Shown here one piece after another: positions 29,866 to 54,853 of a stretch of DNA of 64,000 nt (position 1 is its first letter; every line of letters begins with the position of its first letter). The position numbers were made by a program, and so were the translations under genes. The stretch comes from Fidelibacterota bacterium (GTDB lineage Bacteria > Fidelibacterota > Marinisomatia > SCGC-AAA003-L08 > TS1B11), in NCBI GenBank assembly GCA_020354025.1, contig CP070638.1, positions 2,387,038 to 2,451,037 on the forward strand, in the 5' to 3' direction. The notes below the pieces were generated by a model. That model was not told the origin of the DNA and made no database searches. It saw nothing but the letters and a program-made list of their open reading frames with translations.

Positions 29866-29885
29866 GGCCGGGAAAATACCCGGCC
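29866..29885 (-). terminator. Rho-independent terminator of the motor operon
   Basis: Perfect arms GGCCGGG and CCCGGCC enclose a 6-base loop. On the minus strand the hairpin is followed by ATTTTTTC. It lies 34 bases past the fliG stop and marks the end of the seven-gene operon; on the plus strand it is followed by TTTATAAAA. Confidence 0.88.
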
Positions 29886-29918: not shown

Positions 29919-30836
29919 CTATTCCACCATCTCCCCGCTCAGGATGTCGGCTATGTTGATTTCTCCCGAGTCCTGCAACTTGCGGACCTCCTCCATGACC
30001 GTCCGCCGGGCTTCACCGACCTCCCGCTTGGAAAGGGCTCCCTCTACCGGTTCGAACATGGCCTGTTTCTTGGATGGCAGTACCTTAAGAGCCTGTTCCA
30101 CCGTCTCCTCATCAAATCCCTTAACGGCACGAGCGAGGACATCCAGGTCCACCGCGTTAAGGACATCCCTGAGAACCGTATCCGGCAGCTGGAAAACATC
30201 ATCGAAGGTGAGGTAGAAACGCTTGACCTCCTTGTACAGCTCCGGATTGTCCTGGCTGAGCTTGTCCATTAACAGGTCGGCCTGCTCCAGGGTCATCTGT
30301 CCCAGCATACCGGCTAGCTTCTCACCACCGCCGCGCTCAAACTCCGATGCCTTCGGCAGGTAGCGTGCTTTCTCCTGCAGATCAGCGGCTACGGTCGCTA
30401 CAGCTTCCAGGTTCAGGGCATCAGTGTCGCCCAGCTCTATGAGGGCTTCAATACGCTGATCATGATCAAGACGCTCGTAGACCTTCATCTGCCGCTCACC
30501 TTCCAACTGGGCTAGAACGATACCCATGATCGTGGGGGATTCTGCCAGGATCAGGTAAGCGACCTGCTCATCCGACAGTTTTTCTAGGAAAGCGAACGGT
30601 TTTCGCGAATCACCCGTGGATTCCTTGAACTTCTCTGTCAGGAAACTGAAGTAATACTCTTCCAGTACGGCTTTTTTTACCTTAAACGGTACGCTCGTCA
30701 GCTCCCGCGCCCGAACCCTGATTTTACGCAGATCGGTGTCACTGAGCTCCTTGAAAACGGTTACAGCCAGGCCGTCACCCAGGACCTGGAACAGGATGGC
30801 GGACTTATCGAGACCTGATAAAGCGGTATATTCCAT
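29919..30836 (-). CDS. fliG: FliG-like rotor (switch) protein
   Basis: FliG forms the torque-bearing ring under the flagellar MS ring. This 305-residue protein, slightly shorter than the usual 330, matches along its length. It has the LSGLDKSAILFQVLGD N-terminal domain that binds FliF, a middle domain with a variant EHPQT-type motif (ESPTIMGIVLAQL) and a C-terminal domain with VLPSKKQAMF. The charged torque helix region is SKREVGEARRTVMEEVRKL, followed by GEINIADIL. It is last in the operon, 3 bases after the FliF-like gene, and no fliH or fliI follows. It should transmit force from MotAB to the FliF-like protein. Confidence 0.9.
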   Translation of the reverse strand: MEYTALSGLDKSAILFQVLGDGLAVTVFKELSDTDLRKIRVRARELTSVPFKVKKAVLEEYYFSFLTEKFKESTGDSRKPFAFLEKLSDEQVAYLILAESPTIMGIVLAQLEGERQMKVYERLDHDQRIEALIELGDTDALNLEAVATVAADLQEKARYLPKASEFERGGGEKLAGMLGQMTLEQADLLMDKLSQDNPELYKEVKRFYLTFDDVFQLPDTVLRDVLNAVDLDVLARAVKGFDEETVEQALKVLPSKKQAMFEPVEGALSKREVGEARRTVMEEVRKLQDSGEINIADILSGEMVE

Positions 30837-30839
30837 ATA

Positions 30840-32570
30840 CTAGGACTCCTTTTCCTCTCCCTCTTGCAAGGCCGCGGTGGCGCCTGAAGCCCCCTCTTCT
30901 TCAGAAGTACCCGCCTCCTCCGGTGCTGCGCTCTCCTGCTGGAGCCAGTTACTAATGATGCGCGTGGCTGATTCCGGCCGGCCGACACTCATGGAAACCA
31001 CCGACTGTCGGATGGATTTAACTTCCGAACGTAGAACGTCGGGATCATCTTCTACCTGGCTGGGAACGGGTTCTGCAGCCGGGGCAGGACTTACTACTTC
31101 GGCTTCAGCAGCTGCGGTAGCCTCCCCCTCTTTGGGTGCCGCTTCTTTCTCCTTGGGAGCTGCTTTTGCCTTTTCGGGCTTGGCTTCCTCAGCAGCTTCT
31201 TCCGGCTTGATTTTCTTCTTGGCCTTCTTATGCGGTGCCGCGGCGGGACGAGGCGCTGGTCTGCGGCGTGGATAGGGCGGTGGGCCGGGATAGACCATCC
31301 TTACCGGGGCCGCCTGAGTACGGCTGCGCCCGACAACTAAAACGACTGCGATGATAACCAGAAGCACCAGCAGGACCAATCCCACTATCAGAAGTGCATT
31401 CCCTCCCAGTGCACTTAGGCCTTGCGCTTGAGGCTGTTCCTGTTCCCTCGTGAGGGCCGCCTCGATCTGAGCCTGGAGCCGCTCCTTCTCGGCCTCAAAG
31501 GCCAGGCGCATGGCGCTCAGCGAATCCTCCAGGGAAGCGGCCTGTAGTGAAAGGATGTCCTGCTCATCGGGAGGGAGCCGGCCTGATGTGAGGTCCTTAC
31601 GCATCTCGTCAATCTGGGTGAGGAGTGCCTCCTGAAGTCTGGTGTTACCTTCTTCACGTGATTGCTGCAGGAAAATGAGGTCCTTGGCGCGTTCATTTTG
31701 CACCTGGGCCAGGTCGGCCAGGGCCTGCTTGCGCTCTTCCTCGGACCGCTGCAAGTACTCCAGCTCCCGCTCGCGCAGCTCCTTCATGAGCTCTTCGTTG
31801 CGGGCCTGGGCTTCCTGGAGTTTCTCCTGCAGTGCTTCGGTCTGTTGGATCTGGACTTGAGTAACTGGGATACCGGTGTCGGCCAGATGCGGTGTAGGGC
31901 GGCGATCCTTGAAAGAGGCCGTAGTAATGGAGAGCATGTCACCGCGGTCACGGTCAAAGCGTGACGCTACGAGCGCCACTTGGCGCACATTTTCAATGAT
32001 CTGGGGGGAGACACCATCTTCCAGGATAATGCTGATAGCCATGGACTTGATACTGGGCAGGCCGCCAGCGGTTTCGGTTGTCTCGGTGATCTCTGCCGCG
32101 CCGGCAGCCGGCTCTTCTTCAATTGCCGCTGCTTCCTCCGGTAGTGCGGATTCAGTCTCATCCAGCGGACGCAACGGCTCGCCTTCCTCAACCTCTACGT
32201 CCGGGAAGCCCGGTATCGGGAATGGATTAGTTACGGTCTCCCGGGCACGCTCAGCATCAGCGCCTAACCCGGCGCCTTCCAGCTCGCCGCCAATAGCCGC
32301 CGGATCATCACCCCTGACCAAACGCCCGTCAGCAGTGCGATAAACCTTTTCCACCTGACGGGCCGGAGTAAAGGCCAGCTCAACTTTGACATCTACAACA
32401 AACCGGGATTCATCCAGAATCTTGGATATCGCGCTAGTGACTCTCTGCTGGATCGTGTTTTCCAGCAGGAGCTTCTGGGACAGATAGCCCGATTCCTGGC
32501 TCCTGACTAGGGGAGCGAGTCCCATCAGGACTAGAAGTATGATAGGGAACGTTGCTGTGCGTAGACGCAT
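30840..32570 (-). CDS. FliF-like MS-ring protein of reduced, altered architecture
   Basis: The 576-residue protein has an N-terminal hydrophobic signal or anchor (6-22). Two segments then resemble the FliF C-terminal ring-building region: 34-68 (QQRVTSAISKILDESRFVV, VELAF) and 172-222 (MAISIILEDGVSPQIIENV, RGDMLSITTASF), separated by a variable acidic stretch. A long coiled coil (about 235-375) and one transmembrane helix (388-414) come next. A Pro/Lys/Ala-rich cytoplasmic linker follows, and then a C-terminal segment (about 530-546, GRPESATRIISNWLQQE) like the FliG-binding helix of FliF. The usual N-terminal ring domains (RBM1, RBM2) are missing. It lies between motB and fliG, so an MS-ring role that binds FliG is the natural reading. 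Confidence 0.75.
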   Translation of the reverse strand: MRLRTATFPIILLVLMGLAPLVRSQESGYLSQKLLLENTIQQRVTSAISKILDESRFVVDVKVELAFTPARQVEKVYRTADGRLVRGDDPAAIGGELEGAGLGADAERARETVTNPFPIPGFPDVEVEEGEPLRPLDETESALPEEAAAIEEEPAAGAAEITETTETAGGLPSIKSMAISIILEDGVSPQIIENVRQVALVASRFDRDRGDMLSITTASFKDRRPTPHLADTGIPVTQVQIQQTEALQEKLQEAQARNEELMKELRERELEYLQRSEEERKQALADLAQVQNERAKDLIFLQQSREEGNTRLQEALLTQIDEMRKDLTSGRLPPDEQDILSLQAASLEDSLSAMRLAFEAEKERLQAQIEAALTREQEQPQAQGLSALGGNALLIVGLVLLVLLVIIAVVLVVGRSRTQAAPVRMVYPGPPPYPRRRPAPRPAAAPHKKAKKKIKPEEAAEEAKPEKAKAAPKEKEAAPKEGEATAAAEAEVVSPAPAAEPVPSQVEDDPDVLRSEVKSIRQSVVSMSVGRPESATRIISNWLQQESAAPEEAGTSEEEGASGATAALQEGEEKES

Positions 32571-32588
32571 CAGGGACTCCTGTAATGG

Positions 32589-33296
32589 TTAGCCAATAGA
32601 AAGGAAAGTGATTTCCACCCGACGGTTTTGCGATTGTAGTTCAGGGGAACTGTTTCCGGCCTGCACATCCTCTTCGGTCACACCAATCCTGGTATCGGCC
32701 CAGTTGGTGCCAGCGGGGACCCATTCGGCAAAGCCCACCGCCCGGAGCTTGCCTCCCGGCACGCCTCTTTCAATACAGTACCTGACCACACTGGCTGCCC
32801 GCGCAGCCGACAGCTCCCAATTGGAGGGATATCTATCAGTCCAGGCCTCGGGAATAGGCAGATTATCCGTATGACCTTCTACGGCGATGGGAAACCTAGT
32901 GCCCCGGTCCATCATGATGGGGATGATGCTGTTGAGAAAGGGGTATATCACCGACTTGAGGTCGGCACTGCCGGACTCAAAGGCGAAGCGGCTGTCAATG
33001 GTGATGCTGGTCCCTTTCGGGCTGTGGGTGACCTCGGCAACATCCTGCATCTGCGTCTGCTCGATGGCCTCTAGGACCTCATCCCGGATCTGACTCTGGG
33101 TCTTGATTTGCCGCCTTTCTGCTCGCGCTCCCGTCGCATTTTCCTGCATGGCGGCCGCCATGTCGGCGATTTTTACAGGGTCCAGCGAGGACATGGAGAA
33201 AAGCAGAACGAAAAAGGTCATCAAGAGGGTCATCATGTCAGCGAAGGTCGCAAAGTACTCTGGTAAGCCTTCATCTTCTCGTTTCTTGATAGCCAT
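32589..33296 (-). CDS. motB: MotB-like stator protein with OmpA peptidoglycan-binding domain
   Basis: The 235-residue protein has one N-terminal transmembrane helix (about 15-36). The helix begins with TFADMMTLLMTFFVLLF, and Asp20 is at the position of the ion-carrying aspartate essential in MotB/PomB. A linker follows (about 45-85), then an OmpA-like domain with VEGHTDNLPIP, NWELSAARA and a final SQNRRVEIT, which grips peptidoglycan. With MotA it forms an ion channel that drives rotation. The linker is short. Start and spacing (9 bases after motA) support coupled expression. Confidence 0.93.
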   Translation of the reverse strand: MAIKKREDEGLPEYFATFADMMTLLMTFFVLLFSMSSLDPVKIADMAAAMQENATGARAERRQIKTQSQIRDEVLEAIEQTQMQDVAEVTHSPKGTSITIDSRFAFESGSADLKSVIYPFLNSIIPIMMDRGTRFPIAVEGHTDNLPIPEAWTDRYPSNWELSAARAASVVRYCIERGVPGGKLRAVGFAEWVPAGTNWADTRIGVTEEDVQAGNSSPELQSQNRRVEITFLSIG

Positions 33297-33305
33297 AATA
33301 GACTC

Positions 33306-34115
33306 CTATGCTCCTGCTCCAGGTTCCGCCCTCTTCCACTCTCGGGGTGGAATAAAGGAATTGATCTTCTCGCGCACGATCAGCGGATGTTTCTTCATCT
33401 GTAGTAGGCAGACCCCTTCAGTGATCATGTTCTGCTGGGTGCTCTTGGTTATGATCTGGCTAAGGAGCTTTTCAGCCATAGGCAGGAAGATCAGGTTGGC
33501 AAACAACGCCCCGTAGAAAGTAGTGATCAGGGCCGTGGCCATACCGCTGCCTATAGCGCCGGCCATGTCCGCACCGCCACCCTCAGCACCCATGCCCTTG
33601 AGCATGAATACCAGGCCGATTAGTGTGCCAATTATGCCGAAGGCCGGTGAGAATTTACCCATAGCTTTGAGCAGGTTGGCTTCCGTCGTTTCCCTCTCCT
33701 CACGGTATTCAACCCGGGTCCCCAGGATGTCGCGAATCTCTTCAACCGAATAACCATCCACTACCATTTGAAGACCGTCTTTCAGAAAATAATTTCTAAC
33801 ATTATCAAGGGCGTCTTCCAGATCCTTGGGCCCTTTGCGGGCTACCGTGCCCATATCAACGATCTCGTCAACTAGGGGTCCCAGCTCTTCTCTCCCACCT
33901 TTGAAAACCGCACCCATGATCGTCATTATCCGTAGAACCTCCTTTAGCGGGAATGCGATAGCCGTTGCCGCCAGAGTCCCTCCGATGACGATCATGAATG
34001 ACATCAATTCTACGAATACGACGGGATTAGTTTGCGTATCGCCTGCCTGCATGAAGATGGCACCCCCTACCAGACCGACCCCAACAACAAAACCAAGAAT
34101 AGTTGCAAAATCCAT
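33306..34115 (-). CDS. motA: MotA-like stator protein
   Basis: The 269-residue protein has four transmembrane helices (about 5-23, 33-55, 152-175 and 185-208). The cytoplasmic loop between helices 2 and 3 holds the charged segment that pushes on FliG (around EELGPLVDEIVDM and RVEYREERE). The conserved SPAFGIIGTLIGLV segment carries the proline important for torque, and TFYGALFANL follows. Length and motifs match the MotA/PomA group rather than the ExbB or TolQ proteins, which have three helices. It is the fourth gene of the operon. Confidence 0.93.
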   Translation of the reverse strand: MDFATILGFVVGVGLVGGAIFMQAGDTQTNPVVFVELMSFMIVIGGTLAATAIAFPLKEVLRIMTIMGAVFKGGREELGPLVDEIVDMGTVARKGPKDLEDALDNVRNYFLKDGLQMVVDGYSVEEIRDILGTRVEYREERETTEANLLKAMGKFSPAFGIIGTLIGLVFMLKGMGAEGGGADMAGAIGSGMATALITTFYGALFANLIFLPMAEKLLSQIITKSTQQNMITEGVCLLQMKKHPLIVREKINSFIPPREWKRAEPGAGA

Positions 34116-34124
34116 ATGACCCCG

Positions 34125-35462
34125 CTACTGTATTTTAAGCGATGTTGTTTTTATGCGACCCTCTTTTAATCCCCGGAGTATGTTGCGGACATCATCATAT
34201 TCCGGATCGAGCTTCAATGCCAGGTTCCAATTAATCGTGGCACGCTGCACATCACCCAACTTGAAATATATTGAACCCCGGCGGGCATATGCAATGGCTA
34301 GATCAGGGTTGAGCTGGATAGCCATCTCCACCTCTTGAAGCGCATCCCGGTAGTTCCCCTCGTAGTAGTGCTGGAGAGATGATGAAAGGTGTCGCATGGT
34401 GTAATTGATGTTTGATTTCATCATCTGAATACGCAGTTGCATGTTGCGTACTGAATCAGCCAGGAACACACCCATCTGTTCGAGCATGGCCACCTGGCTG
34501 GAAAGGTTGTCGATCTCGAAGGTGGCTATACGTAGCGAGTCGCGCAGGGATGCCAGCCGAAAGTCCGCTGCCTGTAGCGTGGAATCCAGTTGGCGTGTCA
34601 GAAGTGCCTCCTGCTCATCGGGTTCAATCCTTGGCCCCATAGCCGCAACTTCACCCTCCGCCTCACTGACTGACGGCTTCCTCCCAAGGCGCGGCACGGA
34701 TAGATCCAATCCTACAACCATCGCCGGCGCAATAATACTATCCACTGCACTACCGAACTGTGGCAGGTTCTCAACGTGCACAAAACCTACCTGGAGACGA
34801 TAGTCGGAAGTAATGGGGATGCGGATGCCGACGTTGATCCCGCTACCGTCAAACTCACCAATTACATCCAGGCCGCCCCGGCTGGCAAACAGAGGCGTCT
34901 TTAACAGGAAACCGGCATAAACTCCAAGCTTCAAGGAGGTGTCAACACCCGCCGCAGCTCCTGCCAAGGCACCGGTGCCAAAGCCCATGTAGGAATTCAG
35001 CAAATAGCTCCCCACCTTCTGCTCGCTGGAAATCACGCCGAGAAAAGATAGCAGGTCAGAGTCCATCTCCAGTTTGCCGTCGGACTGGCTCAGGACAATG
35101 TCCTGCAAGCCGAAGGAGAAGCTGATGTTCCCATAGGACCATAATCGCTGCTGCAGGTGGAAACCGATCTCTGTAGTAGTGTCAATAGCTGATACTGCCG
35201 ACATACCCAGACGCAGGTTCCGGGACATTTCCGAGTCAAAATAGACGCCGTTGGCACTGCTGTAGGGTGAAACGTTTACTACTTCAGTGACAAAGCCCGC
35301 GCTGAACAGATAGGGCGAGCGGACAACTGAGCTCAAGGGAATCCGCATCATGGCTCCCGGCCGGCTGTAGGACAACCGTGAAACACCCTCAGCTGACTCC
35401 CATGCCAGGGCGACTAAAACGGTGAATAAAACGACCAATCGGTATCTACAGGATTTGTACAT
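34125..35462 (-). CDS. Outer-membrane barrel protein with coiled coil and TPR tail
   Basis: The 445-residue protein has a signal peptide (about 1-26). A barrel-like N-terminal half follows (about 27-265), with alternating strands and glycine-rich turns (for example LGVYAGFLLKTP and GSGINVGIRIPITSDYRLQVGF). It resembles the PorV/UPF0164 type. A coiled coil comes next (about 285-355), then two TPR-like repeats (about 365-430; YYEGNYRDALQEVEMAIQLN and later ATINWNLALKLDP). This combination would place a periplasmic protein-binding arm on the outer membrane. It lies directly before motA with 9 bases between, so it is likely an outer-membrane partner of the motor. Confidence 0.78.
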   Translation of the reverse strand: MYKSCRYRLVVLFTVLVALAWESAEGVSRLSYSRPGAMMRIPLSSVVRSPYLFSAGFVTEVVNVSPYSSANGVYFDSEMSRNLRLGMSAVSAIDTTTEIGFHLQQRLWSYGNISFSFGLQDIVLSQSDGKLEMDSDLLSFLGVISSEQKVGSYLLNSYMGFGTGALAGAAAGVDTSLKLGVYAGFLLKTPLFASRGGLDVIGEFDGSGINVGIRIPITSDYRLQVGFVHVENLPQFGSAVDSIIAPAMVVGLDLSVPRLGRKPSVSEAEGEVAAMGPRIEPDEQEALLTRQLDSTLQAADFRLASLRDSLRIATFEIDNLSSQVAMLEQMGVFLADSVRNMQLRIQMMKSNINYTMRHLSSSLQHYYEGNYRDALQEVEMAIQLNPDLAIAYARRGSIYFKLGDVQRATINWNLALKLDPEYDDVRNILRGLKEGRIKTTSLKIQ

Positions 35463-35469
35463 ATTTTAT

Positions 35470-36336
35470 CTAAAGGTGCTTCAACTCCTTGATGGTCAGC
35501 TCCGCCAGGCGTTGGTATTCGCTGGCTGGATACTGACTGAGAATGGTTTGAAACCTGGAACGTGCTTGCTGGGCTTTTCCCTGCCTTAGATAAATCAATC
35601 CCTGCAGAACGACGATATCATCCCGCAGCTCATGATCTGTCGCTGGCACCTCTTCCAAAGCCTGCAGGGCCTCATCGAATCGGCCTCGGTGAAAATAGGC
35701 GTCCGCACGCCAATAGGCCACATGGACACGCTCTTTAGTGCTTAAAATCGATTCGTCAATGACCTGGGATAGCTCAATCAGGTCGTCAAGACGCCCAGCC
35801 CGATAAGCCTGAAGGATGTGGCGGAAACCGGGATTATCCGGCAGTGGCGACTGGGCCGTCTCACCAGGAAAAGGTTCCACCCAATCCGGAGCGCTTTCCA
35901 ATGCCTGGGAAACTTCACTCTCCTTGCGCTCAGACTGGATCTTCCTGATCAAGGTCCGCAGTCGCTCGTTCTCCAGCCGTACACCTTCCATGTCCTGGTC
36001 TAAAGAATGCTCTAGCGAATTAATCTTGCCGCTGAGGTCATCCAAGGCTGTCCGCAGCTCCCTCGTGGATTCAATGTAGGCCGCACCAGGGGGCTCTTTC
36101 CCCACCATCAGGCCAACATCATCCATCGCAGGGAGGGAGTCTGCCCCGGCGGCAGAATCCACGTGGCCGGGTTCTATGATAATACCCAGATCCATGAGGT
36201 AGACATCTTCATCTTGGGTATCCTGGGCAACAAGAGCACTCCCGGCTCCAACAAATATCCAACCTACCAGCAGCATCATAAGCCAGCTGGTGGGTGACGA
36301 GGCGACCGCTACTTTTCTCCAGCGCTTTTGATCCAT
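35470..36336 (-). CDS. Periplasmic coiled-coil and TPR protein (CpoB/YbgF-like)
   Basis: The 288-residue protein has an N-terminal hydrophobic segment (about 17-36) that may be a signal peptide or anchor, then an acidic linker. A coiled coil spans about 85-135, and C-terminal TPR repeats span about 165-285 (AYRAGRLDDLIELSQ, ADAYFHRGRFDEALQALEEV, GKAQQARSRFQTILSQYP). The layout is that of CpoB/YbgF, which in other bacteria links the Tol-Pal energy system to cell-wall synthesis. Here it lies with MotA and MotB genes, so a scaffold role between stator and envelope is inferred. No TolB or Pal gene is near. Confidence 0.78.
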   Translation of the reverse strand: MDQKRWRKVAVASSPTSWLMMLLVGWIFVGAGSALVAQDTQDEDVYLMDLGIIIEPGHVDSAAGADSLPAMDDVGLMVGKEPPGAAYIESTRELRTALDDLSGKINSLEHSLDQDMEGVRLENERLRTLIRKIQSERKESEVSQALESAPDWVEPFPGETAQSPLPDNPGFRHILQAYRAGRLDDLIELSQVIDESILSTKERVHVAYWRADAYFHRGRFDEALQALEEVPATDHELRDDIVVLQGLIYLRQGKAQQARSRFQTILSQYPASEYQRLAELTIKELKHL

Positions 36337-36341
36337 ACTGC

Positions 36342-37310
36342 CTACTGATAGTCTTCCCAGTCTATGGTGTAGGAATAGCCGATAAAACTGCCAAAGGATT
36401 TGGCTACTGGCAACTCGAAGGTTGCCGTGGCACCTGGAAGCAGGGATGCATCCGAAGTGATGCCCGATTCAAATGTATGGAAGGAACCCTTGACGAACGT
36501 AGTCAGCGTCTTAGTGTTACCGCTCCAGTCCCTACGGAAAATAAAATTCACCTTCACGAAATCGGCGCGCCGACCGCCGATATTCTTCACATCTCCCCGC
36601 AGTTTCAGGTTCCCCGAACGATCCTTGGCCTCAGCGATAGTACCCACTAGGACCACATTGGGGGCATATGACGACCTGGCGGCCGTGGTTGCCGGTTCCG
36701 TGGGCCTCGTTGTCACAATCGAGGGCTCTACCACACGGTTGGCCGGTGAGGGAGGAGACACGGACAGGCTTTCCGTCTCTCCCATCGCGACGGACTCCGC
36801 CAGCGGCTCTTCGGGGATATTTTCCACGATACGGACTACGGTCGGACGCTCCACAATAAGATAACCGATAAGGGTTTCGACCTTGAGTATCTTCTCGTCC
36901 TGGTAAACGATTTTACCGAAGATGGTGCTGCCGTTATCCAGTATGATCTCTTTACTGTAAATGGTCAGGGGGTTGGCCCACATGGTACTCTTGGCCTGAA
37001 GGTCCCGCAGCTCCGTCGCCAGGTGTTTCACGTCAGCACCCAGCTTCTTAACCTCAAAGTTGATCTCGTTAAGGACATACTCCTCGGTGGCGTCGGGGAC
37101 GGCTGGTGGAGCAATCCCGGCTGGAGCTGTGGAGGGGACGGCTCCACCCTCTTCGGGAGCAGCCTGTTCAGGTTCACCTTCCTCCACCTGTTCGGTCTCT
37201 TCAGCAGCCTGTGCTTCCGCAGCCTCCTTTCTGGCACGGCGCCCTGCACAACCATCCAGTACAGCCAGCACCATAACCAGCATCAGCAGCTTTATGTAGA
37301 TGTTCTTCAT
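36342..37310 (-). CDS. Lipoprotein with coiled coil and FxLYD-like domain, first gene of the motor operon
   Basis: The 322-residue protein has a lipoprotein signal ending in LDGC (Cys21). A Glu/Ala-rich acidic linker (about 28-80) follows, then a short coiled coil (LNEINFEVKKLGADVKHLA, about 83-105). The KEIILDNGSTIFGKIVY segment is a small beta-domain of the kind seen near stress-response lipoproteins. A C-terminal FxLYD-like Ig-type domain (about 225-320) has GNLKLRGDVKNIG followed by an FVKVNFIF strand. It begins the operon, with 5 bases to the next gene. I see no membrane-retention signal (Asp+2) after Cys21, so the outer membrane is its likely site. Confidence 0.72.
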   Translation of the reverse strand: MKNIYIKLLMLVMVLAVLDGCAGRRARKEAAEAQAAEETEQVEEGEPEQAAPEEGGAVPSTAPAGIAPPAVPDATEEYVLNEINFEVKKLGADVKHLATELRDLQAKSTMWANPLTIYSKEIILDNGSTIFGKIVYQDEKILKVETLIGYLIVERPTVVRIVENIPEEPLAESVAMGETESLSVSPPSPANRVVEPSIVTTRPTEPATTAARSSYAPNVVLVGTIAEAKDRSGNLKLRGDVKNIGGRRADFVKVNFIFRRDWSGNTKTLTTFVKGSFHTFESGITSDASLLPGATATFELPVAKSFGSFIGYSYTIDWEDYQ

Positions 37311-37774
37311 ATTATGCGCCTAATATATTACCTAGGATTATACTGCAAGCAAAGCAACTTTCCCAGCTCTTTGAAAAAATGTAGTTGTCGACTCACCGAA
37401 TGTCAAGGTTTTTCAGCAGAATTTCCACTTTTCTTGAAGTATTACTTTCAGCGTGTTTTACCCGCCCGAACCGGGAATATTTCGCCTAATAGGACACCAA
37501 GACGTACTATAAAAAGTAACCCGCAATTGTCCGCTGCCCATCACTCTTTGCTCCTGCTGTGATCTGTCGCACAAATCGTGCCAGGTGAAGGGCGAGGTTC
37601 TTTCATCTCCCTCGTTCCGGCATGAAGCGTTGTATTCCAAATGGAATCTCCCGTTCGCTGAAGGAATTAACTCTCAGCGACGATTGAATTTAGACGGGGA
37701 ACATGATTCGGCACAAGCAAATTGGTGTCGAGTAAGAGGAAAAGACCCCAAGATATAGAGCAATTGTAATATAA
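37311..37774. other. Intergenic region before the motor operon (464 bases)
   Basis: No convincing gene is present; the short frames here are weak and lack binding sites. On the minus strand a perfect TATAAT (complement of 37337-37342) lies 26 bases before the lipoprotein ATG and could be the operon's -10 box, with no good -35 at the usual spacing. The region is more AT-rich than its neighbours. I see no RNA gene. Confidence 0.35.
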
Positions 37775-44667: not shown

Positions 44668-47600
44668 CTACTTCATGAGTACCATCTTCCGGGTTTCGGC
44701 ATAGCCTTTGCCCGCTACGATCCGGTAGAAGTACACACCGGTAGCCATCGGAGCGCCCTTATGGTCCTTGCCATTCCAGAGCACCTGGTGATAGCCGGCG
44801 GGCTGATACTCGCCTACCAGCGTATTCACCACCTTACCGGTCAGGTCATAGACCTGCAGGTTGACGTGCCCGGCTTCGGGCAGCTGGTAGGTGATAGTGG
44901 TACTGGGATTGAAAGGATTGGGATAGTTAGCACCCAGGGCATACGCATCCGGGATACTCTGACCATCAGCAACGGCTATCGTTGATATACTTACTTCCGC
45001 GCTGAGATCACTCTCGTTCCCGTTGGCATCAACCGCCTTCACAGCGTAATGATAGTCTATGCCTTCGGCGAGACTCTCATCAGTAAAGGTATTAGCCTCG
45101 ACCGCTGCGTAAAGTGCATCGCCATAAGCCCCGGAGGCTTCTGCCCGGTAGACGGTGAAATACTGGAAGTCCACATCAGCACTGGGATCCCAGTCAAGTT
45201 GGACACCGCTTTCAACGTTCCTGAGCGCCACCCCATCTGGTACACCAGGAGCGATGTTATCCACCGAGTAGCCGGACCCGACATTCGAGTCAAACCACTC
45301 GAATCCTTCATCACCGGAATAACCTGTTACCAAATAGTATGACAGGTATTGTGCCGGGAAAGGATAGGCCGCGCCTGAATCGGCCCTGGTTGGCAATAGA
45401 ACCGTGTAATTCGATTCTCCTTGGAAGAGTAAGAATCCTACATTCACCATTTCAGTAGGATTGAAACTCGATCCGGTAACGCGCCAGATGTTCCAGCCAA
45501 TGAAAGGCCCTTCCTGGGTACCGCCGCCGTCGAAGGTCAGATAGACCCAACCTCCCTGGTCGGGCTCATCATCCGGGTGAGCGGAGAAGCGCCCCCGGTC
45601 GATTATACTGGTGATGACGGGTGCGACGAACGTGAACTTGTCCAGGCACATACTGGCATCAACATTGCCATCTGCTGGAGCGGTTACCTGTACCCACTGT
45701 CCGTGATAACCGGGCATATCCGCCCAGACGTCATAGTCACTAGCGGGTACGTCTAAGTAGAAATTCCCGGCGGAGTCAGTCTCGGTCCAATCACCATAGT
45801 CAAGGCTGGGACTGTAGATTCCTACACCCGCTCCCGCCAGCGCAAATCCAACCTCGCAGTCTGTTATGGTTCCGCTGATGCTGGCATTAAAGACGATGGG
45901 TGCTAGTGCGATATTATGAGTTACAACCGATCCGGATACTGTTATCGGCCCGGAGTGATAACGGGCATATTCATAAGCATCGGCGCTGACCTCATAGGTA
46001 CCATCAGGTATATAAATGAGATACTCGCCCGTTTCCCAATCAACTCCGGTATGGTATTCAGCATCGGTAGTTGTCTCCAGCACCATAATGTGGACATCCC
46101 AGAGCGTATCGCCACTGGTCGCGTCCGTCACAACACCGGCAATGCCCCCAGCCGCAGTCATAAAGTGGATATTAACCCCGCTGGCTCCGGGTGGGATCTC
46201 CCATAGCTTGTCCATAAAGTAGGTTGAATCGGGCTGGTCTTCCGGCCATACGTTATAGCCCCATTCATCAACCCTGGACGAAACTTGAAGGATGTAGTTG
46301 CCATCCACATTGGTCATCGAACGGCTATACCCGACTGGGTCGCCCCAGGCGCCAATCTCAAGACCCGGCAGCGCGATGTCATCCAGTGTGACGGTACCAG
46401 AGATGGTGGCATTGGTCTCATAGAGGGTGAAGTTCATGATCTCGGTAGCATGCTCTGCAACGAATACCTCTTCACCGGGTGGTATCATGTAGTCCGGGAG
46501 CACACTCTTATCAACGCCAATCCGATGCCACCCCGGCAAGGCGCCGATGCTGTAAAAGCCGGCATCGTTGGTCTCAGCCCCCATTCCGGGGCCGCCTTCA
46601 CCTTCCACGTACACCATCACACCCGGAACCGGGAAATCATCCTGATCATAGACGAAACCCTCGATGAAACTCGTGGGTGCTGCAAAAGTGAAGTCGTAGG
46701 AAGTCAGATGTGCAGTCGTCGCGGTAAGGTCTACTTCGTGGTATGACGTATCTGGGAGCAGTCCCTTCTGGGCACCCAGGAAGTCGAAGGAGAAGATCTC
46801 ATAAAATCCGGCCTCCGGCACATACAGCTGGTAAGTACCGTCGGGGTTGGTTACCGTCATCCGTGGTTGTCCCTCAGGACCTTCATCGCTGGACATTTCT
46901 CCCCAGGGAAACGCTCCTATCAGAACGTTGGCGACGTTCGGCGTTACCGTCCCCGAAACCGACCAGTCAGTGACTTCGGGCTCAATGAAAGCGGCCGCCG
47001 TATCGGCGCCAAGGGAGTCAGTAACCACTGCCAGTACGCGAAGACCGGCAACTCCGCCAGGGCCATCGTCAGCAGGCATTGTAATTTGATAAACACCCAC
47101 TGTCGGGTCTTCATCCTCGAAATCACCGTCGATAATGGTCCCGCCTCCCCCGCCTTCCTCAATATCGGCAAGGTTGAGATCAACCGTATCGTCAAGAGCC
47201 TTATCGGCGTCCATATCGATCCACATATCCGCGTAGGCTTCAATTTGGCCTGCGGAGAAAGTAACCTGAATGACGAGGTCGTCACCTTGTGGTATAGTGG
47301 CGTCCTTCACCCCGTTGATCAGGACACTGATGGTTGATTCAACCGCAAGGGATTTGGCCAGAACGGAATTCCTTGGGGATGCATAACTACCCGAGAATGA
47401 ATCCCTACCGAAAGTGGATAGATTCAATCCTTTCGATAGCCGGTGCTGACGAATAGGCCGAGCCTGCCTTAGGCGGGACTCCTGGCTTTGCATCATCTTA
47501 ATCTTGCCTATCTTGGAGCGGACTAGCCGTTGAGCTTGAATAGCTTCAATATCAATATTCTGTTCAGCCAGAGGCGCCAGTTCCTGAACAGCTGTTGGTG

Positions 47601-47685
47601 TTTTCGCCCCGCTACCCGTTTTCATCGCCAGCAAGGCCGTGAAGACGAGTAGCGGAACAAAAAGTAGAAAGCCTATCTTTTTCAT
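44668..47685 (-). CDS. Secreted multidomain protein with C-terminal sorting domain (paralogue 1)
   Basis: The 1005-residue protein has a signal peptide (about 1-26) and repeated carboxypeptidase-regulatory-like beta-sandwich domains (ISGTV or IxGxV openings near 245, 350, 435, 525 and 615). A fibronectin III-like domain follows (about 825-915). The C-terminal sorting domain (about 920-1005) has NYPNPFNPSTTITYQLPEAG, VYDLTGK, LVGEYQPAGYHQVLWNGKD and a final RKMVLMK. This is the kind of domain recognised by the type IX secretion system of the Bacteroidota group. It is expected on the outer surface or in the medium. No enzymatic domain is seen. Strong AAGGAGG site before the ATG. Confidence 0.85.
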   Translation of the reverse strand: MKKIGFLLFVPLLVFTALLAMKTGSGAKTPTAVQELAPLAEQNIDIEAIQAQRLVRSKIGKIKMMQSQESRLRQARPIRQHRLSKGLNLSTFGRDSFSGSYASPRNSVLAKSLAVESTISVLINGVKDATIPQGDDLVIQVTFSAGQIEAYADMWIDMDADKALDDTVDLNLADIEEGGGGGTIIDGDFEDEDPTVGVYQITMPADDGPGGVAGLRVLAVVTDSLGADTAAAFIEPEVTDWSVSGTVTPNVANVLIGAFPWGEMSSDEGPEGQPRMTVTNPDGTYQLYVPEAGFYEIFSFDFLGAQKGLLPDTSYHEVDLTATTAHLTSYDFTFAAPTSFIEGFVYDQDDFPVPGVMVYVEGEGGPGMGAETNDAGFYSIGALPGWHRIGVDKSVLPDYMIPPGEEVFVAEHATEIMNFTLYETNATISGTVTLDDIALPGLEIGAWGDPVGYSRSMTNVDGNYILQVSSRVDEWGYNVWPEDQPDSTYFMDKLWEIPPGASGVNIHFMTAAGGIAGVVTDATSGDTLWDVHIMVLETTTDAEYHTGVDWETGEYLIYIPDGTYEVSADAYEYARYHSGPITVSGSVVTHNIALAPIVFNASISGTITDCEVGFALAGAGVGIYSPSLDYGDWTETDSAGNFYLDVPASDYDVWADMPGYHGQWVQVTAPADGNVDASMCLDKFTFVAPVITSIIDRGRFSAHPDDEPDQGGWVYLTFDGGGTQEGPFIGWNIWRVTGSSFNPTEMVNVGFLLFQGESNYTVLLPTRADSGAAYPFPAQYLSYYLVTGYSGDEGFEWFDSNVGSGYSVDNIAPGVPDGVALRNVESGVQLDWDPSADVDFQYFTVYRAEASGAYGDALYAAVEANTFTDESLAEGIDYHYAVKAVDANGNESDLSAEVSISTIAVADGQSIPDAYALGANYPNPFNPSTTITYQLPEAGHVNLQVYDLTGKVVNTLVGEYQPAGYHQVLWNGKDHKGAPMATGVYFYRIVAGKGYAETRKMVLMK

Positions 47686-48009: not shown

Positions 48010-51000
48010 TTACTTGAGCAGTACCAGCTTGACGGATCTGGTAAACTCGGGTGTTACCATTCGCGCGATATACAATCCAGTGGGCAATTCACGCCCACGG
48101 TCGTCCCGGCCATCCCAGACGATCCGGTGGTACCCCGCATCACGACGACCATCAACCAATTGCACCAACTGCCGTCCAAGCAAGTCGTAAATCACCAGGT
48201 AAACCTCGGACGCCTCCGGCAGATCAAACCGCAGGGTAGTGGTCGGGTTGAATGGATTGGGATAGTTCTGGTGCAGGGCGAACTGGCCTGGCAGTAGGTC
48301 CTGGTCACGTATACCCACTGTGCTGGCGTCAATCGTCAGGGTGTAAGGCCCGTTGATTGACGCCCACGTCTTGCCATCATCGCCTGAGGCATGGACCTCC
48401 CATTGGCCGGTAATGGCCGAGGTCTTCCCGTGTGCCACTAGGCTGTCCACAATCTCCTGGTAGGGCAGCTTCACCAGAGTATCGGTCAACTGGCTGAAAG
48501 CGGGCAGGATGGCCAGGTCTCCAATAAACAACAGGTCATAGTGCACAGTACCTTCAACAACCGCGGCTTGCCAAGAGATCGTGAGGCTGTCGGACCGGTT
48601 ATCATCCGTGATAATCAGAACGGTGCTGTCAGCCGGCAGGCTCAGTGTGAAGAATTCCGGGGGATACTGCACGGTGAGGCTGTAATCCTTGACCAGATTA
48701 ATGCCGGAGGCCACTTCGAAGGTATCGGTCAAGGCAGGGCCATCATGGACATACGGGAGATAGATTTCCAATACCCATTTATACCCGCCGATCAGTGGCA
48801 TTTCATAAAATCCTTCGAACTCGGTGTTCCTCCAATCATGGAATCCCATCGTGTCTTCGATGCTGAAGACATGGATCCCCGCATCGGGAACCGGATTGCC
48901 GTACTGGTCAGAGATGTAGCCGCTCAGGAACGCGTCCGCAGGGTACATGATGAAGTCAATCCCGCTAGCCCCTGAGTATACCTCACAAGAACCACCACCT
49001 GGCCGGGCCGACCGGGAAAAGGCATCCATGTACCACGTGTTGACGCAGTAGCCATGGGTCTTCCAGGTCCCATGCTCGTCAGTGATCTCTATACTGTCAA
49101 GCTTGGAGCTGACCGGCAGGGAATAGGTCCCGTCAGTTCCGGTTTGAGTCCGGCTATAGTAGCCCGCCGGGGTATCACCCTGAATCTCAGCGTATTCGAC
49201 TCCCGAAGCATCATCGTCCCATGTTACGGTGCCGGTGATTGTGGCGTCGGTCGTATATGTGACAAAATCGACCGTAATGGAATCCCCCGTGGTTACCTCA
49301 AAACCCTCCTTGCCGTGGGGAATCATGTAACCTTGGTCGATTAGGTCCTCTTCGGAAAGACCGACATGCCACCAGCCGGCAAAAACCTGGAATCCGTATT
49401 TGCCCTCGGCATCGGTGGTGTCGTCCATCCCGAACATACCCTCCGCTCCCGCGAATACGCGGACACCGGCTATAGGACTTGCCTCATCGTCCGTTAGGGT
49501 TCCACTGATCTTGGCGTCAAAGACCAGTGTTGTTAGCTCGATATTGTGAGTTACTACCGCTCCGGATACTGTGATCGATGCATAGTAATATGGCAGGTAT
49601 TCATGGGAGAAGGCCATGATCTCATAGATGCCGTCAGGCAGGTAGATTAGATACTCGCCCGTCTCCCATTCAATCCAGGTCTGGAACTCTGCGCCGGTCA
49701 GGTCCCTTACCATAATACCGACATCACCATAAAGCGTATCGCCGGTTGCCGCATCCGTAACGACACCGGTGATGCCGCCGGTTACCGTCACTAAGTTGAT
49801 ATCCACATCCGTTTCGCCCGGCTGGATCCCCCACAGCTTGTCGGCGAAATAGGCTTGTTCGGGCATGTCTTCCGGCCAGACGTCATAGCCCCGCGAATCA
49901 ACCTTCTTCGAAACATCCAGCGTGTAGGAACCATCCGTCCCGGACTTGGTGAAAGTCATTCCGACAGGATCGCCCCAGGCGCCAACCTCGAAGTCGGACT
50001 GAGGGATGTCATCCAGATAGACCTTTCCGGAGATGGTGGTGTCAGCCTTATATGCCACGAAATCCACCTCAACGGTATCACCTTCGGAGATATCGAAATC
50101 ATCCCTGCCATGGGGAACCATATAGCCCAGATTAATGAGATCATATTCACCGGGACGGACATGCCACTCGCCTGCAATAGCTGGTATAGCGTATTCGCCG
50201 TCAACATCGGTGGTGTCCTCCGCCTGAAACGGCCCATCCATGCCAGCAAAGATGCGAACCCCGGCTATGGGGCTGGCGAGCTCATCAGTAAGGGTCCCGC
50301 TGATGAGGGCGGTGGGTTCCTCGAGTACAAAGTTATTGTCGATCAGGCTGTCGCCACTTGCAACTGTTAGCATAACCATCTGTGGGTCAGGATACAGGCC
50401 GCTATACTGCCCTAAAAAATCCATGGCGAAGAGGGCAAATTCAGTACCGGCAATGTCATCGTCAATGAAGAGCGTATAATCGCCGGCTGCATCTGTCAGG
50501 GTCAAGAACAGGTTTTCCGGTGTGTCTTCCTCCCCCTCCATCATCTGCTCGGGGAAGGCGATTATCAGCACATTGGGGGCCGGGGTCTCATCATACTTGG
50601 ACACGTTACCTGACAGGCTGGTTTCAGAAACCGGGGGCAGCACATCCAGTGTGTCCAGGCCCGTGTCACTCCCATCACTGTTTGACAGGCTGAAAAAGAC
50701 CTTCACTCCTTGGAGGCTGAAGATTATGTCCCCTTCATCTACCCTACCGGTATCAAAAGTGATCTTCCAGACACCGGTGGCGGGATCTTCATCATCCTCG
50801 TCACCATCAACAACCACGATCTCTTCTTCCTCCTCTTCCGGATCACTGGGGGCAAAGTAGAAGTCAGTCTCCGAATCGAAGCTGCCGTCCCCATTATCGA
50901 CATAGGGTCTTACCCAGACCGAGTCGGAATAGGTGATAATAATGGCGATAGTATCACCTACCTCATACTCGCTGACAGGTGCGCCGCTGGCATCAGTGAT

Positions 51001-51288
51001 CTCAACCGGAATCGTCGCCGCCGGGCTTAGAATCTGGAATGGACTGACAACGTTTTGCGGTTCGACCCTGCGCAATCCCAGGAACGAGTCGCGTGTAGTC
51101 CTCTCCCGGGAAAATGGTCGTTGTCGAATCTGATGACTGCCAGCTGCGTCAATGCTGGATGCATCGGCTGCCAGGGCAGCCAATTCTTGATTGATCGCTG
51201 TTGCTTCCCTCCAGCCGTCCGCATTCATAGCCGGCATGATCGTGAATGCAAGTAGTGAAACCGTAAATAGTAAACCTATCTTTTTCAT
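48010..51288 (-). CDS. Secreted multidomain protein with C-terminal sorting domain (paralogue 2)
   Basis: The 1092-residue paralogue of the neighbouring gene has a signal peptide (MKKIGLLFTVSLLAFTIM). An N-terminal domain has an acidic EEEEEE-like loop, and at least seven carboxypeptidase-regulatory-like domains follow (ISGTL/ITGTV openings). One of these is duplicated within the protein, since FAGMDGPF and FAGAEGMF modules repeat with MVPHGRD and MIPHGKE. A C-terminal sorting domain has NYPNPFNPTTTLRFDLPEAS and RSVKLVLLK. I set the start at ATG 51288, where the signal peptide begins and GGGAGG lies upstream, not at the longer frame from 51336. It is probably a surface or secreted structural protein. 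Confidence 0.85.
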   Translation of the reverse strand: MKKIGLLFTVSLLAFTIMPAMNADGWREATAINQELAALAADASSIDAAGSHQIRQRPFSRERTTRDSFLGLRRVEPQNVVSPFQILSPAATIPVEITDASGAPVSEYEVGDTIAIIITYSDSVWVRPYVDNGDGSFDSETDFYFAPSDPEEEEEEIVVVDGDEDDEDPATGVWKITFDTGRVDEGDIIFSLQGVKVFFSLSNSDGSDTGLDTLDVLPPVSETSLSGNVSKYDETPAPNVLIIAFPEQMMEGEEDTPENLFLTLTDAAGDYTLFIDDDIAGTEFALFAMDFLGQYSGLYPDPQMVMLTVASGDSLIDNNFVLEEPTALISGTLTDELASPIAGVRIFAGMDGPFQAEDTTDVDGEYAIPAIAGEWHVRPGEYDLINLGYMVPHGRDDFDISEGDTVEVDFVAYKADTTISGKVYLDDIPQSDFEVGAWGDPVGMTFTKSGTDGSYTLDVSKKVDSRGYDVWPEDMPEQAYFADKLWGIQPGETDVDINLVTVTGGITGVVTDAATGDTLYGDVGIMVRDLTGAEFQTWIEWETGEYLIYLPDGIYEIMAFSHEYLPYYYASITVSGAVVTHNIELTTLVFDAKISGTLTDDEASPIAGVRVFAGAEGMFGMDDTTDAEGKYGFQVFAGWWHVGLSEEDLIDQGYMIPHGKEGFEVTTGDSITVDFVTYTTDATITGTVTWDDDASGVEYAEIQGDTPAGYYSRTQTGTDGTYSLPVSSKLDSIEITDEHGTWKTHGYCVNTWYMDAFSRSARPGGGSCEVYSGASGIDFIMYPADAFLSGYISDQYGNPVPDAGIHVFSIEDTMGFHDWRNTEFEGFYEMPLIGGYKWVLEIYLPYVHDGPALTDTFEVASGINLVKDYSLTVQYPPEFFTLSLPADSTVLIITDDNRSDSLTISWQAAVVEGTVHYDLLFIGDLAILPAFSQLTDTLVKLPYQEIVDSLVAHGKTSAITGQWEVHASGDDGKTWASINGPYTLTIDASTVGIRDQDLLPGQFALHQNYPNPFNPTTTLRFDLPEASEVYLVIYDLLGRQLVQLVDGRRDAGYHRIVWDGRDDRGRELPTGLYIARMVTPEFTRSVKLVLLK

Positions 51289-51342
51289 CACCTTTGTCCT
51301 CCCATGGATGTTGTGTTCTAACTGCCTGAATATCAAAGCGGC

Positions 51343-53377: not shown

Positions 53378-54853
53378 CTACTTCAATAGCAGCATCTTGA
53401 TGGAATTGGAGTAATCCACTGTTACCAGGCGCGCGATATAAACGCCCGAAGGGACTCTGCGCCCGCTGGCATCCCGGCCGTTCCAGACTACTCGTTGTAG
53501 ACCCGCGCCGTTATATCCCTCCACCAGCCTTACCACCTCGTTGCCCAGTAGGTCATAAACAACCAGCGATACATCGGTTGCCCTTGGCAAGGCGAACCGG
53601 ATGGACGTCGTGGGATTGAACGGATTTGGTATGTTGGGATGCAGGGCATAGCCTGCGGGTAGCATGATACTCACAGGATCGGTATCCAGTGGTTCAGCAC
53701 TGCCCACTTCTCCGGCGATGGCCAGGGAACTGAAATGGGCGACGCTCGAGAAAATACGGTTCAGCGATAGGTCAACGGTCGTATAGCCGATCCCGGTGGT
53801 ATCAAAAATCACGGTGTCATCTTCCACAGTTGCGAAGTATAATCCCAGGGTGCTGGGATCGATGCCCATATTTTTAAGCAGACCTCGTTTATAGACCAAC
53901 CCGACGATCAACGGAGTCTCGAAATTATACGGTTCCGCTAGGGTGTCATTCACGAGTACCTGAAATTCGATCCCGCCGATTACGCCTTTGTGGGTGAAAC
54001 CTACGCTATCACCGTCCAAACGCGTGAAGCCGGGCAGTCGGATATGGATGCGGATGTCTTCTGTCAGGCTGCCGACCGGGAAGTAGACCTTGCCACCGTT
54101 CAGAACATTCAGGGGATGGGGCAGCCCGCCGAGTGTCCACAACTCGCCTTCTGTCAGGACACCCATGGTGGTATACCCGTGTGGGCTGGGAGAATCCCGC
54201 GTGATAGTAATAGTATCCAACCCGGTCGTATCGGACGCGGGGTCCGTGACGACGACGAAGCTTGATCCTTCCCACTCTCCTATCTGGGCTCGGATTACTC
54301 CGTATCCCTGCGCTGTGGTTGTCAGGAGGCCCTCCCCGCTCAGGTCTCCTACCGGCATGCCGGCCAGGCTCCACGTAAGCGCACTATCAACTGGCGCACC
54401 GGGAAGAGACACCGAGTCGGATGGATAATAGGCCTGGAATTGAACCTGGCCGCCGAGGACCACGGTCGTATCACGCGGCAGGATGACCAGATGTTGGTAC
54501 TCATAACCGGTGGTATCTTCCCCATCTGCCTTCTCTATGGTCACCAGCGTCCAGTCCATCAGGGTATCCAGGGTTCCAGTGACTATGCATTCACCGGGAC
54601 TCCCAGCCACAAACAGGCCGGTGGTGTCGATGGTGCCCAGGGAATCGGGCGATACCGACCAGCTCACGGTAGTATCCGATTCCACCTCGGCAGTATCGGT
54701 GTAAACGGCTTCAAACTGGCGGGAGTCGCCAACTTCTAGCGTGACTTTACCCGGGTAGATTTTTAACGCCGGTGTAGTATGACCCTGAGCCAGGAGCATA
54801 GAGCTGATAAAAAATGCGAAAGTAAAATTGATAATTGTAGTTGAACTCTTCAT
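53378..54853 (-). CDS. Secreted protein with Ig-like domains and C-terminal sorting domain (third member)
   Basis: The 491-residue protein has a signal peptide (about 1-22, ending LLAQG). Two bacterial Ig-like (BIG2-type) domains follow: LKIYPGKVTLEVGDSRQFEA with SWSVSPDSLGTID, and LVILPRDTTVVLGGQVQFQA with its LTTTAQGYGVIRAQ partner. A beta-rich middle (about 215-390) comes next. The C-terminal sorting domain has NIPNPFNPTTSIRFALPRAT and a final NSIKMLLLK. It is related to the two large proteins upstream only through that tail. It lacks an evident catalytic motif. Confidence 0.83.
   Translation of the reverse strand: MKSSTTIINFTFAFFISSMLLAQGHTTPALKIYPGKVTLEVGDSRQFEAVYTDTAEVESDTTVSWSVSPDSLGTIDTTGLFVAGSPGECIVTGTLDTLMDWTLVTIEKADGEDTTGYEYQHLVILPRDTTVVLGGQVQFQAYYPSDSVSLPGAPVDSALTWSLAGMPVGDLSGEGLLTTTAQGYGVIRAQIGEWEGSSFVVVTDPASDTTGLDTITITRDSPSPHGYTTMGVLTEGELWTLGGLPHPLNVLNGGKVYFPVGSLTEDIRIHIRLPGFTRLDGDSVGFTHKGVIGGIEFQVLVNDTLAEPYNFETPLIVGLVYKRGLLKNMGIDPSTLGLYFATVEDDTVIFDTTGIGYTTVDLSLNRIFSSVAHFSSLAIAGEVGSAEPLDTDPVSIMLPAGYALHPNIPNPFNPTTSIRFALPRATDVSLVVYDLLGNEVVRLVEGYNGAGLQRVVWNGRDASGRRVPSGVYIARLVTVDYSNSIKMLLLK

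Follow-up and report, generated by a model that had tools for sequence, protein, structure and literature searches.

A phylum-wide operon of flagellar stator and rotor homologues in Fidelibacterota points to an envelope-spanning machine that does not depend on a flagellum

Introduction

What does a flagellar motor core do when it is encoded beside outer-membrane proteins? The question is raised by a seven-gene operon at positions 29919-37310, minus strand, of the window, the whole 64,000-nucleotide stretch analysed here, which spans 2,387,038-2,451,037 of the single 3.40 Mb contig of its genome. In order, the genes encode a lipoprotein, a coiled-coil/TPR protein, an outer-membrane β-barrel with TPR, MotA- and MotB-type stator subunits, a FliF-like protein and a FliG paralogue (Table 1). 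The host belongs to Candidatus Neomarinimicrobiota (SAR406/Marinimicrobia, now Fidelibacterota), mostly marine bacteria, and the operon is found throughout this phylum. The rotor protein FliG is known as a part of the flagellum, and no rod, hook or filament genes were recognised inside the operon or its flanks. We consider it very likely that the operon specifies a stator and rotor that are driven by ions, do not belong to a flagellum and pass torque across the periplasm to the outer membrane.

Results

The operon is maintained without a flagellum

Among 150 phylum genomes (at least 85% complete; operon FliG called at E < 1e-50; cross-tabulated by hand), 108 carry operon FliG, 33 carry FlhA and 26 carry both, leaving 82 with operon FliG and no FlhA. 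Operon FliG or the operon barrel is present in 116 genomes. Flagellum presence is judged by two proxies, FlhA and FliM/N. Most members of family f3, with small genomes of 1.1-1.9 Mb, have operon FliG without FlhA, and FliM/FliN (PF01052) gave no match in the flagellum-free, operon-bearing relatives tested from this family. A FliG match was also obtained in 33 of 40 relatives.

Gene order is the same in all 100 loci compared, comprising 20 from relatives and 80 from genome scanning (the best 80 of 134 matches), with some genomes counted twice; 56 hold all seven genes, and the others are mostly cut by contig ends. This shared order is far beyond chance. The original prediction, made from the window alone, had pointed to related genomes as the place to look for the same arrangement, and it recurs there. 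The lipoprotein gene is kept in first position throughout the phylum, and gene 2 is the fastest-evolving member, sometimes missed by its profile in relatives. Other phyla were covered by one pattern-based genome scan, the best 80 of whose 134 matches are phylum-named, nameless or probably mis-binned. One contig labelled SAR86 (Gammaproteobacteria; L112) has operon FliG and FliF-like genes and is probably mis-binned.

Operon FliG forms one clade in the tree (support 100/100), apart from flagellar FliG (99/98). A recent duplication of the genome's own flagellar genes is ruled out by this old, phylum-wide clade, and there is no sign of recent horizontal import, the GC content of the operon being 0.552 vs 0.550 for the window. 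Compared with same-genus relatives, six of the operon genes have a ratio of non-synonymous to synonymous substitution rates (dN/dS) of 0.04-0.13, which indicates purifying selection; gene 2 was saturated. Collinearity, the separate FliG clade, low dN/dS and the FlhA-less carriers thus describe an old, maintained system that is not dependent on a flagellum. With its order kept in relatives lacking FlhA or FliM/N and its sequences under purifying selection, the operon is best read along the lines of the earlier proposal, as a functional, non-flagellar machine that transmits force in the envelope and derives from the core of a flagellar motor.

Flagellar genes of the window genome

That proposal had named a complete flagellar gene set elsewhere in the genome as a ground for rejecting it, and such a set exists. 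A complete, canonical flagellar cluster lies at ~2.925-2.945 Mb of the same genome around a second FliG and, as read from translated open reading frames (ORFs), comprises FliF, FliG, FliH, FliI, FliJ, hook genes, MotA, MotB, FliL, FliM, FliO, FliP, FliR, FlhB and a partial FlhA. The cluster FlhA (L005, G000:C1 2925000-2944999, positions 535-1548) is interrupted by a run of N followed by seemingly unrelated sequence, a break that may be either a scaffold join or a masked stretch; a complete FlhA lies elsewhere, at 1,020,852. Identity between operon proteins and their own flagellar counterparts is 21% for FliG and ~38% for MotA and MotB, marking the operon proteins as distant paralogues. The family of the window genome has flagella as well. 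This cluster is not decisive against a non-flagellar machine, because the operon persists without flagella in other genomes.

The same comparison bears on whether the seven genes supply auxiliary stator or rotor parts to an ordinary flagellum, or form a decaying flagellar relic. The flagella of the window genome and its family would fit either case, but FlhA is missing in 82 of the 108 carriers, FliM/N gave no match in the flagellum-free members of the order that were tested, and gene order and low dN/dS are preserved. Flagellum-free carriers rule out both versions, which we regard as extremely improbable.

Stator and rotor residues

FliG_N, FliG_M and FliG_C all score above cut-off (Pfam, NCBIfam), and the MotB plug and OmpA domains, MotA and the TPRs were likewise confirmed. 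The MotB channel aspartate, Asp20, is intact as predicted, being present here and conserved in 83/83 sequences. In MotA (E. coli numbering), conservation is 78/80 for R90, 76/80 for E98 and 80/80 for the threonines of transmembrane (TM) helices TM3 and TM4. FliG residues were mapped onto an E. coli reference sequence whose residue numbers were checked. Here the predicted intact charged region holds in part: K264 and R281 are retained as K/R in 94/94, whereas the D288/D289 pair is lost in about 90/94. In the flagellar motor, the partner of MotA R90 is FliG D289 and that of E98 is R281 (PMC7564593). Loss of D288/D289 therefore means that one of the two MotA-FliG contacts must be replaced and that the interface must differ from the flagellar one. 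The FliM-binding EHPQ motif is degraded, with H and Q lost, a pattern consistent with the absence of FliM/N.

Operon MotA and MotB best match the flagellar MotP/PomA, MotD and MotS models (NCBIfam) rather than TolQ/ExbB; neither TolQ/ExbB nor TolR/ExbD identity was found for them, the TolQ model reaching 20.9 bits, far under its cut-off. These matches argue against an outer-membrane maintenance, uptake or cell-wall machine of the Tol-Pal or ExbBD-TonB kind, in which FliG and the FliF-like protein would act as a force relay. Such a machine could draw on the operon lipoprotein, the TPR/coiled-coil protein (YbgF-like, weakly) and MotA/ExbB-family parts, and the Tol, Ton and Gld machines illustrate the general principle. 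However, a separate protein of ExbB/TolQ size is encoded in the window genome and in most relatives checked, and the operon holds no TonB- or Pal-like gene, making this explanation decidedly unlikely. Cell-wall work, one of the functions first suggested for the operon, finds no specific support.

FliF-like protein, barrel and fusions

Against the FliF C-terminal family in Pfam, the FliF-like protein scores 19.8 bits, under the 23.8 cut-off. Its 18 best Foldseek matches are all FliF MS- or S-ring structures, and a profile search retrieves FliF chains at 5.4e-6; because of this fold and profile evidence, the FliF-like assignment is upheld despite the sub-threshold score. A conserved tail, VSMSVGQPETATQIVKDWL, aligns weakly in the profile search to the FliG-binding end of Vibrio FliF. 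The protein is laid out as a signal peptide, an RBM3/S-ring domain (~30-220), a helical stalk (237-377), a TM helix (391-415) and a cytoplasmic tail with a FliG-binding helix (510-546). In its AlphaFold model, the predicted local distance difference test (pLDDT) score averages 69.5 and exceeds 90 across most of the RBM3 core and stalk. The modelled chain comprises one alpha/beta domain, a ~140-residue helix, a single TM helix and, on the cytoplasmic side, two more helices. Gene 6 does not encode a full-length FliF, lacking RBM1, RBM2 and the first TM helix; as modelled, it is a FliF reduced by these three elements, with its S-ring domain lifted on a stalk. At ~21 nm, the 140-residue helix could cross much of the periplasm.

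The gene 3 model (pLDDT 82) combines a barrel (~51-257), a periplasmic helix (293-368) and a TPR domain (371-433), the coiled coil and TPR lying C-terminally, on what is presumably the periplasmic side. Foldseek returns barrel and TPR matches, those to barrels being generic. Assignment to PorP/SprF, PorV or another named family was rejected, as there was no meaningful Pfam match.

Four genomes of distant members (G052, G132, G011 and G123) encode single proteins in which a signal peptide, an RBM3-like domain, a TM helix and FliG are fused. Alignment of three of them pairs the N-terminal part with the FliF-like family (97.1%, 5.9e-11) and the C-terminal part with FliG (3.5e-37). As evidence of a separate kind, these fusions indicate that FliG and the FliF-like protein act together as a single unit. 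At two loci (L180 7580-11146; L181 2926-6132), genes for a TPR lipoprotein and a secreted TPR protein with a coiled coil come after an RBM3-TM-FliG fusion, and MotAB is not encoded next to them. They represent, by gene content, a second, smaller kind of FliG system, and the genomes concerned also carry the seven-gene operon. Further stator genes occur elsewhere: L184 (6148-8355) holds a MotA gene followed by a tandem pair of different MotB-like genes, and L171 (5631-7149) and L185 (5922-7406) hold extra MotA-MotB pairs without same-strand FliG or flagellar neighbours.

Proposed machine

In the machine that we propose, MotA5-MotB2 stators, anchored to peptidoglycan through the MotB OmpA domain, would push a ring built of the FliG paralogue, and the FliF-like protein would hold this FliG through its C-terminal helix. 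The single TM helix and long periplasmic stalk of the FliF-like protein would carry the motion to an S-ring-like RBM3 head. There, either this head or the coiled-coil/TPR protein would meet the TPR domain of the outer-membrane barrel and the lipoprotein. In this way, torque generated at the inner membrane would act at the outer membrane or cell surface. Such a machine would do without export gate, rod, hook and filament, and without the FliM/FliN switch. Rotation, ring formation, contact between the periplasmic head and the outer-membrane proteins, and the output are inferred. Taken as a whole, an envelope-spanning rotary machine whose best-guess output relates to the type IX secretion system (T9SS) appears probable.

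Type IX secretion as a candidate output

The T9SS translocon SprA is present in 149 of the 150 genomes, 146 above cut-off. GldL and GldM are the sole T9SS core parts with features of an ion-driven motor (PMC8986121). A GldM hidden Markov model (HMM) matched one genome, G032, which lacks the FliG operon; the GldL profile was not searched. G032 has a complete gldK-gldL-gldM-gldN operon (L164 10557-15536) adjoining surface-polysaccharide genes. The gene content of the seven-gene operon, namely a barrel, a lipoprotein, a two-part ion motor and a long shaft, parallels the por/gld motor of Bacteroidota. A variant operon in G052 (L167 8310-16009) encodes an RBM3-TM-FliG fusion, MotA, MotB, an FG-GAP protein and a TPR-bearing barrel; a T9SS signal domain is present in the 1120-residue FG-GAP protein (CHU_C at 35.4 bits against a cut-off of 27), and the barrel weakly matches the PorV/PorQ family. 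The window itself encodes three proteins with T9SS type-A sorting domains (Table 1). The operon may drive the T9SS or move T9SS-exported surface proteins, the job of GldLM in Bacteroidota, a suggestion that we rate somewhat below an even chance.

Alongside the altered MotA-FliG interface, several observations weigh against this picture. SprA occurs with neither operon FliG nor operon barrel in 34 of the 150 genomes, of which 33 also lack GldM and 11 are streamlined to 0.8-1.0 Mb. The genes that recur next to the seven-gene operon include no recognised T9SS gene, and G032, the only GldM-positive genome, may be contaminated (estimate 5%; composition not decisive). At least two of the 34 genomes carry a fusion-type FliG instead. 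Since SprA is nearly universal, co-occurrence cannot test a link between the operon and the T9SS. In the 0.8-1.0 Mb genomes of family f12 (G063-G073), SprA is kept and neither operon FliG nor GldM is found; a single ExbB-like protein was found in four of the five genomes checked, and none in the fifth.

The smallest genomes also bear on a related explanation, namely that the operon is a surface-motility motor, for gliding or for moving adhesins, in which the barrel/TPR protein moves adhesins exported by an otherwise-energised T9SS and secretion itself is not powered. Loss of the operon in genomes of 0.8-1.0 Mb that retain SprA is expected if secretion does not need it, the L167 variant includes the gene for a large surface protein of FG-GAP type that bears a T9SS signal, and the E59A substitution in F. 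johnsoniae GldL separates adhesin motion from secretion (PMC8986121). The seven-gene operon itself, however, has no conserved adhesin gene, and the literature search gave no gliding in this phylum; a motor confined to surface motility seems unlikely.

Operon layout and neighbouring features

The seven ORFs are collinear, with intergenic gaps of 5, 7, 9, 9, 18 and 3 bases in gene order; the count, order, common strand, 3-18-base gaps and single terminator first described for the locus are all confirmed. The operon neighbours are housekeeping genes (pantothenate/CoA genes and pyruvate phosphate dikinase), flanks that mirror shared ancestry and give no functional clue. A TPR lipoprotein gene lies immediately upstream of the operon in 29 loci and not at the window locus; it is a possible accessory.

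Table 1. Operon genes, signals and T9SS-related proteins in the window
Feature	Position in window	Strand	Basis or detail
Gene 1, predicted outer-membrane lipoprotein, 322 aa	36342..37310	-	lipobox LDGC, Cys21; no Pfam family
Gene 2, secreted coiled-coil protein with C-terminal TPR, 288 aa	35470..36336	-	
Gene 3, outer-membrane beta-barrel with TPR, 445 aa	34125..35462	-	AlphaFold, Foldseek, strong phylum-wide matches
Gene 4, MotA-type stator subunit	33306..34115	-	Pfam/NCBIfam and conserved torque residues
Gene 5, MotB-type stator subunit	32589..33296	-	channel Asp20; OmpA-like peptidoglycan-binding domain with family-specific insert
Gene 6, FliF-like protein	30840..32570	-	fold search, profile search, AlphaFold model
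Gene 7, FliG paralogue, N, M and C domains	29919..30836	-	Pfam/NCBIfam
Strong intrinsic terminator 3' of FliG	29866..29885	-	7 G-C pairs, then T run
Promoter-like site upstream of gene 1	37378..37406	-	TTGACA-17-TACATT, 10/12; match to consensus only
T9SS type-A sorting-domain protein	44668-47685		above cut-off
T9SS type-A sorting-domain protein	48010-51336		above cut-off
T9SS type-A sorting-domain protein	53378-54853		above cut-off

Discussion

We read the operon as a system that would work like a flagellar stator-rotor and be laid out like a trans-envelope motor of the GldLM type. With the flagellar motor it shares homologous MotA, MotB and FliG, an RBM3/S-ring domain and FliG-binding tail in the FliF-like protein, the stator torque residues and FliG K264/R281. 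It differs in that most carriers lack FlhA and those tested lack FliM/N, in a FliF-like protein that is missing RBM1, RBM2 and TM1 and has a long helix between its S-ring domain and the membrane, in the added barrel, lipoprotein and TPR protein, and in the lost EHPQ and D288/D289 of FliG. The resemblance to GldLM/PorLM with GldK/GldN and PorP lies in a single operon that joins a two-protein ion motor, a lipoprotein, a barrel and a long periplasmic shaft; SprA is present in the phylum with or without the operon. In contrast to GldLM/PorLM, with which no sequence relation was detected, the operon includes FliG as a separate rotor along with an S-ring protein, and its shaft would be part of the rotor rather than of the stator core; GldM is missing in 149 of the 150 genomes.

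Tol-Pal, ExbBD-TonB, AglRQS and ZorAB, the MotAB-related 5:2 motors, likewise use an ion-driven motor of the MotA/ExbB family that acts on the envelope, but operon MotA and MotB match the flagellar type better, and these systems are not known to have a rotor derived from FliG or FliF. The non-flagellar type III secretion system, the known machine derived from the flagellum, retained the export apparatus but did not retain MotAB/FliG. The operon is the reverse, with MotAB/FliG kept and no export apparatus.

In a 2025 survey, rotor proteins without filament proteins were found in 11% of non-motile species, for which 'an alternative function' was suggested (PMC12199754). In another 2025 study, the known flagellar stators form a single clade and the remaining homologues are regarded as generic transporters of a non-flagellar kind (PMC12505986), and the available part of a review of 5:2 motors describes FliG in the flagellar motor only (PMC9389320). 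Our literature search, which had subscription journals and bioRxiv outside its range, yielded no non-flagellar FliG/FliF machine and, for FliG in this phylum, a passing co-mention at most. What would be new is the machine as a whole, its parts being homologues of flagellar proteins. More tentatively, and with real doubt, it may represent a new class of envelope machine, a flagellum-free rotary motor that turns or pushes an outer-membrane complex and is spread across the phylum, with RBM3-FliG fusions among its forms, that powers the T9SS or surface-protein movement in place of GldLM. If the T9SS link is true, it would explain how a phylum with SprA and almost no GldM energises secretion, and the flagellar motor would have been re-used as a shaft drive through the periplasm.

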